64,000 nt of DNA from Elusimicrobiota bacterium (GTDB taxonomy: Bacteria; Elusimicrobiota; Elusimicrobia; UBA1565; UBA9628). The stretch is from positions 1 through 64,000 of the forward strand of contig JACPFR010000008.1 of NCBI GenBank assembly GCA_016182905.1, written 5' to 3'. The position numbers were made by a program, and so were the translations under genes. The first letter of the stretch is position 1, and each line of letters starts with the position of its first letter. Under the pieces are notes generated by a model, which did not search any database, was not told the DNA's origin, and saw only the letters and a list, made by a program, of their open reading frames with translations. Shown here one piece after another: positions 12,671 to 29,922 of this stretch.

Positions 12671-14698
12671 TTAGGAAGCGACGACGCCCTGGGCGAGGGC
12701 CTTGCGGTAGATCCCCAGCGCCTGCAGGGGGAAGTTGTTGCGGTACATCGTGTATTCAAGGTAGTACACCTTCGGGAAGCCCGTGCCGGTGAACTCCGTC
12801 TCGTCCCAGGTGCCGTCGGGGCGCTGGGTGGAGACGAGGTGCTCGACGCCTTTCTTGAGCGCGTCGCTCGAGTAGTCGCCGGCGGCCATGAGGGTCATGA
12901 TCGCCCACGCGGTCTGCGTCGGCGTGGCCGGGCCCTTGCCCTTGAGCTTGGGGTCGTGATAGGTCTCGCAGGTCTCGCCCCAGCCGCCGTTGGGCAGCTG
13001 GACGGACTTCAACCAGGCGGCGGCGCGCTTGATGGCCGGCTGGTTCATGTCCTCGCCGATCGCGGCGAGGCCGCGCACGGCCTGCCAGGTGCCGTAGATG
13101 TAGTTGACGCACCAGCGGCCGTACCAGGACCCGTCGCTCTCCTGCTCGTCCTTGACGAAGCGGATCGCCCGGGCGGCGGCGGCGTAAGAGGCGTCGTAGC
13201 CGCAGTAGCCGAGGAGCTCGAGGACGCGGGCGGTGATGTCCGCGGTGGGCGGATCGATCATCGCGTTATGGTCGGCGAAGGGGATCTTCTCGAGGACGGC
13301 CTTCGTGTTCTCCTTGTCGAACGCCGCGAAGCCGCCGGTGACCGACTGCATGCTCATCAGCCAGTTCAGGCCGCGCAGGAAGGACTTCTCGCGGATCTGG
13401 GCGTTGGGCTCCTCGAGATGGACGTGGCGCAGGGCGAGGAGGACCATCGCGGTGTCGTCGACGTCGGGGTAGAACGGGTTGTTGAACTGGAAGTGCCAGC
13501 CGCCGGTCGGCCCGGAGGGGTTGGTGACCGCCCAGTCGCCGCGGATCTTGATCTCCTTGGAGATGACCCACTGCGCGGCCTGCACGAGGGCGGGGTGGGA
13601 GCGGTCGAGGCCGGACTCGGCCAGGGCGATCATCGTGATCGCGGTGTCCCAGACGGGGGAGCGCGAGGGCTGGTAGCGCGTCGAGTCCTCGGAGGGGACC
13701 TCGAGGCGGTCGAGCTCCTGGAGCAGGGAGACCAGGCGCGGGTCGGTGTCGGGGTAGCCGAGGCACTTCATCGCCATGATCGCGTTGACGATCGGGGGGA
13801 AGATGGCGCCGGGGCCGTCGGAGTCCTGCAGGCGCTCGAGGATCCAGTCCTCGGCCAGGCGCAGGGCCCAGACGCGGATCCAGTGGCCGCCGCGGCCTTC
13901 CATGCCCTTGAGGAAGGAGTCCCAGATGAGGAAGAAGGTCGACCAGGAGACGAGGGCGTGCGGGCCGACGGCCTCGGTCAGCGGGATGTGGCGGCGGGAG
14001 TCGGGGAACAGCTCGTCGATCGTCGCGTGCGCGGGGCACGGGATCTGCGGCTGGAACGCCCAGACGATGGACAGCGGCACGACGATCGGGCGCGTCCACG
14101 ACGACATCTCGTAGAGGTTGAAGTAGAACCACTTCGGGAACAGCATGATCTCGGGCGGGATCGAGGGGATGCCGCGCCAGTCGTATTGCCCGAAGAGGGC
14201 GAGGTAGAACTTGGTGTAGGAGTTGGCCTTGTGCACTCCGCCGAGGGCCTTGATCTTCTTGCGCGCGGCCTCGAGGCGGGGCTCGTTGGGGGAGTGGCCG
14301 GCGAACTTCAGCGCCCAGTACGCCTTGACCGTGGCCGAGATCTCGGAGGGGCCGTTGTCGTAGATGGGCCAGCCGCCGTCGGGGTTCTGCTTGTTGAGGA
14401 TGTGGTTGGCCAGGCGGCGGACCTTGACCGAGCTGCCGCGGCCGAGGAAGTTCAGCAGCATGACCGTGTCGGAGTCGATCGTGGTGTCGCCGAAGATCGG
14501 GCCGCACCAGTAGCCGTCCTCCTGGTTCTGCATGCGCAGCAGCGCGTCCTGGGAGCGGCGGATCGCGTCGCTCAGCCGTTCGGGGGTCTCCGTACTAGAG
14601 GAAGCGAGCCGGACTTCGGGTCTGATGCTGTCGAGTAGGTCGACGGGTCTGCGGTCCCGTCCCAACGTGAGCCAGCCGGACACCATATTCTTGATCAT
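12671..14698 (-). CDS. shc: Squalene-hopene cyclase
   Basis: A 675-residue class II triterpene cyclase converting squalene to hopene and hopanol at the membrane. The catalytic acid motif DVDDTA lies at 412-417. Several QW repeats are visible, for example LRMQNQEDGYWCG near residue 55, LNKQNPDGGWPIYD near 101, QLPNGGWGE and TQRPDGTWDE near the C-terminus. Length and motif spacing are normal. It is the first gene of shc-hpnH-hpnA. An extended -10 (TGGTATAAT) ends eight bases before the ATG, without a Shine-Dalgarno. Confidence 0.96.
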   Translation of the reverse strand: MIKNMVSGWLTLGRDRRPVDLLDSIRPEVRLASSSTETPERLSDAIRRSQDALLRMQNQEDGYWCGPIFGDTTIDSDTVMLLNFLGRGSSVKVRRLANHILNKQNPDGGWPIYDNGPSEISATVKAYWALKFAGHSPNEPRLEAARKKIKALGGVHKANSYTKFYLALFGQYDWRGIPSIPPEIMLFPKWFYFNLYEMSSWTRPIVVPLSIVWAFQPQIPCPAHATIDELFPDSRRHIPLTEAVGPHALVSWSTFFLIWDSFLKGMEGRGGHWIRVWALRLAEDWILERLQDSDGPGAIFPPIVNAIMAMKCLGYPDTDPRLVSLLQELDRLEVPSEDSTRYQPSRSPVWDTAITMIALAESGLDRSHPALVQAAQWVISKEIKIRGDWAVTNPSGPTGGWHFQFNNPFYPDVDDTAMVLLALRHVHLEEPNAQIREKSFLRGLNWLMSMQSVTGGFAAFDKENTKAVLEKIPFADHNAMIDPPTADITARVLELLGYCGYDASYAAAARAIRFVKDEQESDGSWYGRWCVNYIYGTWQAVRGLAAIGEDMNQPAIKRAAAWLKSVQLPNGGWGETCETYHDPKLKGKGPATPTQTAWAIMTLMAAGDYSSDALKKGVEHLVSTQRPDGTWDETEFTGTGFPKVYYLEYTMYRNNFPLQALGIYRKALAQGVVAS

Positions 14699-14706
14699 GC
14701 CTGGAG

Positions 14707-14715
14707 ATTATACCA
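14707..14715 (-). promoter_or_regulatory. Extended -10 of the shc operon
   Basis: On the minus strand TGGTATAAT is a perfect TATAAT with the TGn extension, ending eight bases before the shc ATG. No good -35 is seen, as is normal for extended -10 promoters. The predicted mRNA is leaderless or has a one- or two-base leader. Confidence 0.65.
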
Positions 14716-14756
14716 CAGGGGACGGCCTTGCGTCGGGACGGCGACGGGCTTATGAC

Positions 14757-14883
14757 GGCCCGGCGGCGGATTCATGTCCTTCGGGGCCGCTCGGCATTGA
14801 GCCTCGCTCGGGGTCGACGGCGCTTGGAGCGCAAACAGCGCGGCGACCCCACGCCCCTCAGGACATGAACCCGCCGCCGGGCC
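14757..14883 (+). repeat. Structured repeat, copy 1
   Basis: The ends form a long stem: 14757-14780 pairs with 14860-14883 (23 of 24 positions). Inside is the segment CTCGGCATTGAGCCTCGCTC, which is present reverse-complemented in copy 2, and a GACCC(C)ACGCCCCTCAGGACAT segment, also shared. Between them lies a copy-specific stretch. The element could be a REP/MITE-like DNA repeat or encode a structured RNA; the sequence alone does not decide. Confidence 0.7.
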
Positions 14884-14992
14884 TTATGAAGGAATCGGCC
14901 ATCCCGCTTCCACGCCGTTTGGCGCTTCACGAAGAAGCCCATCGCCGCAGGCGATAAGTCCGTTGGCCGTCCGCCCCGACGCGACGGGTCAT

Positions 14993-15115
14993 CGGGGTGG
15001 AGGATCGATGTCCTGAGGGGCGTGGGTCGCGCGACCGAATTGCTCATGCGGTCGCGCAAGACCCGAGCGAGGCTCAATGCCGAGCGTCCCCGAAGGGCAT
15101 CGATCCTCCACCCCG
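14993..15115 (-). repeat. Structured repeat, copy 2 (inverted)
   Basis: The ends pair over 22 bases (14993-15014 with 15094-15115, one mismatch). Read on the minus strand it matches copy 1 in the stem-proximal segments and in the CTCGGCATTGAGCCTCGCTC block. The central part differs and forms its own hairpin (GCGCGACCGCATG...GGTCGCGC, with perfect outer arms GCGCGACC/GGTCGCGC). Confidence 0.7.
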
Positions 15116-15137
15116 GCCCGCATCGGCGTTCCGCGGA

Positions 15138-15167
15138 TGGACAAGGCGTCGCTCAATGAGGCATAAT
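15138..15167 (+). promoter_or_regulatory. Probable livJ promoter
   Basis: TGGACA (15138-15143) and CATAAT (15162-15167) are 18 bases apart. Transcription would start near 15174, leaving a leader of about 30 bases with AGGAGG before the livJ ATG. Confidence 0.45.
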
Positions 15168-15205
15168 CGCCGCCCCGCTGCATATTGAGGATTAGGAGGA
15201 AATCA

Positions 15206-16357
15206 ATGACCTTTCGCAAAGCCCTCGCCGTCGCGGCCGTCGCCCTCGCGGCCGCCGCCTGCGGCCCCAAGGAAAAGGCCATCAAGATCGCCGTCGCGGT
15301 GCCGCTGACCGGCGACATGGGCACGGAAGGCCAGGGCCTGCGCCGCGCCGTGGAGCTCGCGGTCGAGGAAGCCAACGCCGCCAAGCGCTTCCCGTTCAAG
15401 CTCGTCGCCGCGCCGTACGACGACCGCGCCGACCCGAAAGAGGCCGTCAACGTCGCCAACCTGATCACCTCGGACCCCAACGTCATCGCGGTCGTCGGCC
15501 ACTACAACTCCGGCTGCGCCACGCCCGCGGCGAAGGTGTACGCGCGCGCGCCCGTGGCGATGGTCTCGCCCGCCGCGACGAACCCCGAGGTCACCGCGCA
15601 GCAGGACTCGAAGGACTGGATGGGGCCGCGCGTCGTCTTCCGCGTCGTTCCGACCGATGACGTCCAGGGCTCCTACGCCGCGATGTTCGCCGCGAAGAAG
15701 CTGGGCAAGAAGCGCATGGCGCTGCTCCACGACAAGTCGCCCTACGGCCAGGGCCTCGCCGAGGAGTTCAAGAAGGGCTTCGTCGCGGGCGGCGGCAAGA
15801 TCGTCTCCGAGGACGGCATCTCGGTCGGCGACAAGGACTTCAAGGCGCTGCTCACCAAGATCAAGAGCGACCCGTCCAAGCCCGAGGGCGTCTACTTCGG
15901 CGGCCTGTATACCGAGGCGGGCCTGCTCCTCAAGCAGATGCGCGAGCTCGGCCTCAAGGACCCGTTCGCGTTCATCTCCGGAGACGGCTCGATGACGTTC
16001 GGGCTGTTCGACGTGGCCGGAGACGCCGCCGACGGCGCGTACCTGTCCATCGTCGGCGTGCCCGCCGACGAGCTGCCCAGCGCCAAGAAGTTCGTCGACG
16101 ACTACAAGGCCCGCTTCCCCAACGACGAGCGCAAGCCGTTCGACCACTTCGGCTACGAGGCGGCCAACATCATCATGGCCGCGATGGAGCGCGCCGGCGG
16201 CCCGGACCGCGCGAAGGTCATCGAGGAGCTCAGGAAGACGAAGCACGAGGGCGTGCTCGGCACGACCGTCTTCGACGGCAAGGGCGACACGACGAGCAAG
16301 ATCGTCACGATGACGCGCGCGGTCGCCAAGAAGCGCGCGTTCGACTCCGTCCGCTAA
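15206..16357 (+). CDS. livJ: Branched-chain amino-acid ABC transporter substrate-binding lipoprotein
   Basis: A 383-residue periplasmic-binding-protein type 1 (Leu/Ile/Val-binding family). It begins with a lipoprotein signal (AVAAVALAAAAC, lipobox Cys near residue 20), so it is probably membrane anchored. The mature domain opens IKIAVAVPLTGDMGTEGQ and contains VIAVVGHYNSGCATPAAKVY, a typical ligand-contact region. The ATG at 15206 is preceded by AGGAGG; an in-frame ATG-like start seven codons earlier lacks a ribosome site. It is the first gene of livJHMGF. The ligand could be a branched-chain amino acid, amide or urea; family membership does not fix it. Confidence 0.92.
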   Translation: MTFRKALAVAAVALAAAACGPKEKAIKIAVAVPLTGDMGTEGQGLRRAVELAVEEANAAKRFPFKLVAAPYDDRADPKEAVNVANLITSDPNVIAVVGHYNSGCATPAAKVYARAPVAMVSPAATNPEVTAQQDSKDWMGPRVVFRVVPTDDVQGSYAAMFAAKKLGKKRMALLHDKSPYGQGLAEEFKKGFVAGGGKIVSEDGISVGDKDFKALLTKIKSDPSKPEGVYFGGLYTEAGLLLKQMRELGLKDPFAFISGDGSMTFGLFDVAGDAADGAYLSIVGVPADELPSAKKFVDDYKARFPNDERKPFDHFGYEAANIIMAAMERAGGPDRAKVIEELRKTKHEGVLGTTVFDGKGDTTSKIVTMTRAVAKKRAFDSVR

Positions 16358-29767: not shown

Positions 29768-29785
29768 CGGCGCTCAACGGCACTG

Positions 29786-29881
29786 ATGAACCACAAAGAC
29801 ACCAAGACACAAAGAAACGGATGAATGGCGTTGCCGCTAACCCTAAGCCGTTCTTGGTGCCTTCGTGTCTTTGTGGTTCAT
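29786..29881. repeat. Inverted intergenic repeat between pilQ and pilB
   Basis: The ends form a 17-bp perfect inverted repeat (ATGAACCACAAAGACAC at 29786 and its complement ending at 29881). It continues imperfectly inward over about 31 bases per arm. The interior is AT-richer than its surroundings. AACCACAAAGACAC-type inverted repeats recur in many bacterial intergenic regions. It may also terminate pilQ transcription. Confidence 0.7.
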
Positions 29882-29922
29882 TCGTTGCCGTAGCCGTTTC
29901 TTGTCGTTATTAGTGAAGGGGC

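Follow-up and report, generated by a model that had tools for sequence, protein, structure and literature searches.

The convergent doublet at positions 14757-15115 of the window, the whole 64,000-nucleotide stretch of Elusimicrobiota DNA analyzed here, consists of two units of one dispersed repeat family, inverted to each other. Taking the evidence as a whole, we think that the feature is probably a member of a non-autonomous, intergenic and mobile family of repeat doublets that is read as a folded single strand.

Unit 1 (14757..14883, plus strand) presents hairpin A first and has 23 of 24 arm pairs; unit 2 (14993..15115, minus strand), in which hairpin A comes last on the plus strand, has 21 of 22. 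Both sets of coordinates and pair counts had been given exactly in an earlier note on this DNA. The covariance model R1 scores the units at 119.5 bits (C8:14759-14881) and 112.5 bits, respectively, values that are not independent matches, as both units belonged to the training set of R1. The outer stem of unit 1 reads GGCCCGGCGGCGG-A-TTCATGTCC / GGACATGAA-C-CCGCCGCCGGGCC. Its hairpin A (14788..14806, plus strand) folds as GCTCGGC-ATTGA-GCCTCGC, where the tandem T.C/C.T mismatch becomes G.A/A.G on the opposite strand, and its hairpin B (14811..14850, plus strand), placed by folding and alignment, reads GGGGTCG...CGACCCC and is the part that varies among subfamilies. In unit 2, hairpin B (15025..15064, minus strand; GGGTC-TTGCGCGACC...GGTCGCGCGACCC), likewise placed by fold and alignment, belongs to a different subfamily from that of unit 1, and hairpin A (15068..15086, minus strand) is marked by an exact core match at 15065-15084 on the minus strand. 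This 20-mer core has two exact occurrences in the window, in opposite orientations, against a mean of 0.03 after shuffling, which bears out the earlier claim of inverted copies with a common core. The same note had given copy 2 a hairpin of its own: the sequence of hairpin B does differ between the copies, but both copies have one. It had also described outermost stems that differ yet stay paired; the whole arms differ, but ATTCATG and GATCGATG, the segments it named, lie mid-arm rather than outermost.

The inter-unit spacer (14884..14992) contains three short hairpins (CGCC/GGCG, GCTTC/GAAGC and TCGCC/GGCGA). On the outer side of unit 2, the terminal motif ACGCCGATGCGGGC (consensus ACGYYGATRYRGGC; 15116..15129, minus strand) adjoins the arm, and unit 1 is preceded by an alternative type of outer flank, ...TTATGACGG (14745..14757, plus strand), of the GACGGCCCGG type that recurs at other sites. 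The left neighbor is shc, encoding squalene-hopene cyclase (12674..14698, minus strand; Pfam PF13243/PF13249) and divergent from livJ; the right neighbor is a livJ-like gene for a branched-chain amino-acid ABC transporter binding protein (15206..16357, plus strand; Pfam PF13458). The doublet sits in the gap between them but, contrary to the earlier note, does not fill it, taking up 14757-15115 of 14699-15205, and the promoter-like boxes of livJ, TGGACA at 15138 and CATAAT at 15162, are undisturbed. In a scan of the window for palindromes with 26-nt arms and a 50-140-nt loop, units 1 and 2 ranked first and second. The fold z-scores of the two copies on both strands are -8.2/-9.7 and -10.3/-9.6, with 0 of 200 shuffles as stable. 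The sole other independent match in the long-arm scan, at 29781-29886, is a different, AT-richer palindromic repeat, AACCACAAAGACAC...GTGTCTTTGTGGTT.

Throughout the family, the unit measures ~125 bp (~110-140 bp) and is laid out as an outer stem of ~24 bp, a GGGG/CCCC clamp, hairpin A and then hairpin B, which together fold into a long stem bearing a three-way junction with two hairpins. Hairpin A is exemplified by GCGCGGC-ATTGA-GCCGCGC; among 46 diverse units its ATTGA loop and the junction are near-invariant, while the arms and hairpin B are variable. Adjacent units are arranged head-to-head ('+-') in 33 of 33 pairs, with gaps of 15-159 bp (median 96 bp). The doublet on contig C2 resembles that of the window along unit 1, spacer and unit 2, with 82% identity over ~430 bp. 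At some ends only, the 14-bp motif ACGYYGATRYRGGC directly adjoins the outer arm, and a looser pattern is found at 21 of 113 flanks; the terminal motif has 31 matches in 3 genomes versus 0 for the reversed pattern, and 6 of its 9 matches in genome G000 adjoin units.

Arms that are unrelated in sequence are each matched by their own partner, and this is the informative point about their pairing. Across the outer 20 arm positions of 115 distinct units, 95.0% of the pairs are Watson-Crick, a figure reached partly by construction because unit detection demanded good pairing; when the 3′ arms are swapped among units, the figure is 36.5%, with a maximum of 41.2% in 500 shuffles. RNAalifold returned 31 consensus pairs for the 46 diverse units, 30 of them with double changes and almost none with G-U. 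At orthologous sites, coordinated changes that keep a Watson-Crick pair number 324 versus 82 one-sided changes, in comparisons that are non-independent and that in a few cases set different units of one doublet against each other. For example, unit 1 of site C39 shows four double changes and no single change between G006 and G016, and unit 1 of site C4 one double change and no single change between G000 and G003. The pair counts leave out the alignment built with the covariance model, which mixes sense and antisense matches to the palindromes. Selection on structure had been suggested on the strength of the two window copies; the massive compensatory change among the further copies speaks for it.

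The pairs that depart from Watson-Crick geometry distinguish the two strands. On the strand that reads hairpin A first, the arms contain 46 A.C, 14 G.T, 47 pyrimidine-pyrimidine and 9 purine-purine pairs; the strand that reads hairpin A last has 46 G.U, 14 A.C, 47 purine-purine and 9 pyrimidine-pyrimidine pairs, and the difference between its 46 G.U and 14 A.C is significant (p = 4e-5). Tandem G.A mismatches also stand beside the clamp and within hairpin A on this hairpin-A-last strand. With RNA parameters it forms the more stable fold in 74 of 88 nonredundant units, and with DNA parameters in 71 of 88. Parts of the hairpins may differ in strand stability through loop content, without selection, and may thereby inflate the 74/88; the G.U/A.C bias of the arms is the cleaner strand test. 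Both window copies fold better with hairpin A last (-99.4 versus -91.3 and -93.0 versus -82.4 kcal/mol). The mismatch pattern seems to be that expected if the fold of the hairpin-A-last strand matters. Because the mismatches are strand-asymmetric and one strand folds better, a single-stranded fold seems to have been selected, and since the units of a doublet face each other, the better strand is the opposite one in each of the two.

A BLAST search with copy 1 returned about a dozen further copies in the host genome, where the covariance model R1, built from 18 sequences, found 21 units. R1 had matches in 17 of 38 genomes: the host itself, 14 of the 18 others from its genus, and members of 2 of the 4 other family genera; outside the family it matched none. 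No units turned up in G002, G008, G012 and G018, whereas G007, G013 and G016 have many. The model R2, built from 46 sequences, was positive in 15 of 295 genomes of the phylum, namely 9 of the same genus, 5 from 4 other genera of the family and 1 from another family of the same order. The weak R2 outliers keep the unit architecture on inspection by eye, and about 260 other Elusimicrobiota genomes gave no members. Further copies thus exist in this and related genomes and carry compensatory changes, in keeping with the family that the earlier note had envisaged. A scan of named genomes for the exact core found the family in Elusimicrobiota metagenome-assembled genomes; matches to the core 20-mer in Portnoybacteria, Acidobacteriota and Planctomycetota contigs were discarded as chance, since they have no unit structure (best E 0.43). 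Phage and plasmid collections contained no DNA match to the repeat. The openly licensed literature on REP/RAYT/BIME and on Elusimicrobia/Elusimicrobiota repeats describes no such family, and none has been reported for the phylum in searchable openly licensed papers. The repeat family, apparently a previously unnamed one, is essentially confined to one genus plus rare relatives. Copy numbers are probably underestimated because assemblies break at repeats; in G007, units often lie at contig ends (C9, C12, C78, C85, C97, C101, C109, C122 and C139). The most distant member (L390; G025:C218:15032-15166), from another family of the order, keeps the architecture but has a hairpin A with a different stem and loop, CTTCG replacing ATTGA.

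Three species (G000, G007 and G014) have the shc-livJ site filled; five (G004, G006, G008, G015 and G018) have no unit there and a much shorter gap. Other sites, too, have a clean empty counterpart: that of the G007_C22a doublet in G000, whose intergenic gap measures 3-4 bp, that of G000_C32 in G003, and that of G000_C9 in both G007 and G016. In addition, G011 contains three 277-bp doublets with 100/92/87% identity, unrelated flanks and matching inverted ends CCGCTSAYGCGGGCG. The empty sites and the near-identical dispersed copies support the mobility proposed in the earlier note. At many sites, 3-5 species have a unit in common but differ in its arms and at times in its core, which indicates that movement is old or rare and that sequence turnover in place is fast. 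Retention across species could reflect a host function. Loss by deletion also occurs, as seen from remnants in which the ends have fused or one of the units has collapsed. Two such doublet remnants, L360 (G016:C270:379-880) and L336 (G007:C34:21346), suggest deletion between palindrome arms, and several empty sites could be losses.

In the mechanism that we propose, which accords with the doublet geometry, the strand bias, the latitude in paired stem sequence and the distribution of filled and empty sites, each doublet would consist of two inverted ~125-bp units, a spacer of ~15-160 bp and, at some ends, the outer motif ACGYYGATRYRGGC. A dedicated enzyme would read the shape of the single strand, with its long stem, GGGGACG junction and ATTGA hairpin, and not the sequence of the stem. 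Since shape and not stem sequence would be recognized, the stem letters could drift if both arms change together, and mobilization of this kind would permit turnover of the stem sequence, the two arms keeping step. Each strand of the doublet, like those of REPIN/BIME doublets, would have one unit in the correct fold close to its 3′ side. The selected molecule would be single-stranded DNA, and its structure would serve as the mobilization signal. Exchange between ectopic copies, together with deletion of palindromes, is probably a further influence on the sequences. A bolder proposal, which we put forward tentatively as possible rather than probable, is that the repeats are a new class of mobile doublets of one Elusimicrobiota lineage, in which a shape-reading enzyme or an RNA-templated process moves ~125-nt three-way-junction hairpins.

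Genes for Y1 transposases are present in some genomes, with 5 in G000 and 8 in G011, and absent from several that bear units, including the unit-rich G013. At 20 Y1 loci (G000, G001, G007, G011 and G016) there was no covariance-model match above noise and no long palindrome. RAYT mobilization was rejected, as 0 of the 20 Y1 loci are linked to units and the unit-rich G013 lacks Y1 genes. We also rejected an autonomous transposon spanning distant units (G014:C29 and G013:C224), because the intervening genes are ordinary housekeeping genes; those between distant units include M16 peptidase, glmS and pdxJ, names assigned by eye. In three genomes searched with the TIR motif for larger elements, the remaining matches were coding or degraded units, and neither these matches nor the inspected loci yielded an autonomous partner sharing the ends.

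Several known systems resemble the repeat in part. Integron attC sites are imperfect palindromes of 60-140 bp, variable in sequence and recognized by structure, with one folded strand preferred; they have conserved outer R′/R″ boxes and a variable center. Inspection of motifs in the present repeat reveals the reverse, a conserved center and variable arms; its units face each other and form no cassette arrays. It is this central position of the conserved part that led us to drop an attC-like identity. From one copy to another, ERIC and RU sequences are conserved, whereas here the stems are rewritten yet paired and the units stand in inverted doublets. The present family otherwise resembles ERIC, RU-1 and other bacterial MITEs, which are of similar size (127 bp), intergenic and mobile in appearance (PMC2759123, PMC2229807).

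The mobile unit of REPINs is the inverted REP doublet, and their hairpins commonly undergo compensatory changes (PMC3116915); in E. coli, TnpA-REP cuts REP as a single strand and leaves the complementary strand uncut (PMC8266576). Like REPIN/BIME elements, the present units are intergenic, palindromic and arranged as inverted doublets with a short spacer; singlets resemble decayed doublets, and hairpin changes are compensatory. Unlike REP, they are ~125 bp long with a three-way junction (versus 20-50 nt), number 10-30 per genome (versus hundreds), have hypervariable stem sequences and lack the GTAG/CGTC tag: within 14 nt of the arms, GTAG occurs at 3/113 outer and 1/113 inner flanks and CGTC at 7/113 and 12/113. 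Nor does any unit lie near the Y1-transposase genes of the 20 loci, as REP with RAYT would. Tag, size and RAYT linkage therefore place the family outside REP/REPIN. By analogy, the best reading is that the present doublets would nonetheless work like REPIN/BIME doublets, with recognition of a single-strand structure.

The signature of a selected fold could also be expected of a host-beneficial structured RNA or mRNA 3′-end element, such as a terminator, a stability element or a protein-binding RNA, whose positions are kept because they are useful; each unit would then be transcribed itself or form the processed 3′ end of a neighboring transcript. A transcribed RNA would give the same strand bias, which keeps this explanation under consideration, and the strand-specific fold stability and tolerance of G.U and G.A look RNA-like. 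Many orthologous sites are kept across 3-5 species, units typically start 10-40 bp past a stop codon, and a simple GC3 method identified both neighbors at 64 sites, which divide into 24 between convergent, 32 between tandem and 8 between divergent genes. We nevertheless consider an RNA function unlikely. The units of a doublet are always opposed, so that any one transcript would contain one unit as antisense; on the better strand, just 2% of the pairs in the arms are G.U; and sister species lack the unit at the same locus. The neighboring genes have unrelated functions (mraZ, groES, rpmH, lgt, thiolase and shc, assigned from sequence and only some of them searched), and both their 5′ and 3′ sides are used, divergent promoters included. 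Searches of the window stretch and 16 relative loci against Rfam 15 gave sub-threshold matches only, with no family matched.

A third explanation, which strikes us as distinctly improbable, is that the palindromes are passive and owe their perfection to DNA mechanics: both arms would be rewritten by switching of template from arm to arm (quasi-palindrome correction) and by ectopic gene conversion, and no fold would be selected. The arms do change jointly, often in blocks of adjacent letters, as at site C39 (GGCGGATTCATG -> GGGGCAATCATG); one-sided states are few, G-U is almost absent, and orthologues of unit 2 at site C8 keep their outer arms while the interior has been exchanged for that of another subfamily. 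Pure arm copying, however, predicts equal A.C and G.T on the two strands, where 46 versus 14 are observed, and it leaves unexplained both the near-invariant hairpin A loop and junction and the strict rule of convergent doublets. The units might instead be the long terminal inverted repeats of an ordinary MITE belonging to a DDE-type insertion sequence. This reading fits the inverted ends, the intergenic location, the terminal motif at some ends and the three near-identical G011 copies with their short matching inverted ends, but is very improbable, given that the terminal arms are wholly different among copies when transposase-bound ends should be conserved, that the empty/filled comparisons, whose resolution is limited by divergence, show no target-site duplication, and that no autonomous element with a transposase gene lies between units in the inspected loci. 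The alternatives offered in the earlier note, a MITE-like unit or a family of structured RNAs, are thus upheld in outline, except that hypervariable arms are at odds with a classical MITE, whose terminal repeats are conserved in sequence.

The repeats document with unusual clarity selection that acts on shape over sequence in bacterial intergenic DNA, a natural record that rests on 115 units, nearly all pairs covarying and a consistent strand bias. The orthologous filled and empty sites allow tests of how structured repeats arise, persist and disappear, and the repeats point to a mobilization system unlinked to RAYT. The covariance models offer a means of annotating family members.

Some further structures were noted beside the typical units. 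Around single units in L121 1842-2032 (G000:C9) and L114 785-974 (G001:C210), the palindrome runs ~30 bp further, and the two extended palindromes have a common GAATTCAACGAATT-like outer stem, as if the unit were nested in another hairpin. A doublet in a sister genus (L391 1501-2210; G019:C13:156976-157680) has an AT-richer spacer of 460 bp encoding a 96-aa ORF with no Pfam match, possibly a cargo gene. Finally, an unrelated structured palindrome of 182 bp (L004 1742-1923; G000:C2:18941-19122), GGAAATCATCCGCC...GGCGGATGATTTCC with an internal GGGGCGATCCTACCCC segment, adjoins an M16 peptidase gene and is conserved in the orthologous stretch L151 (G003:C65).
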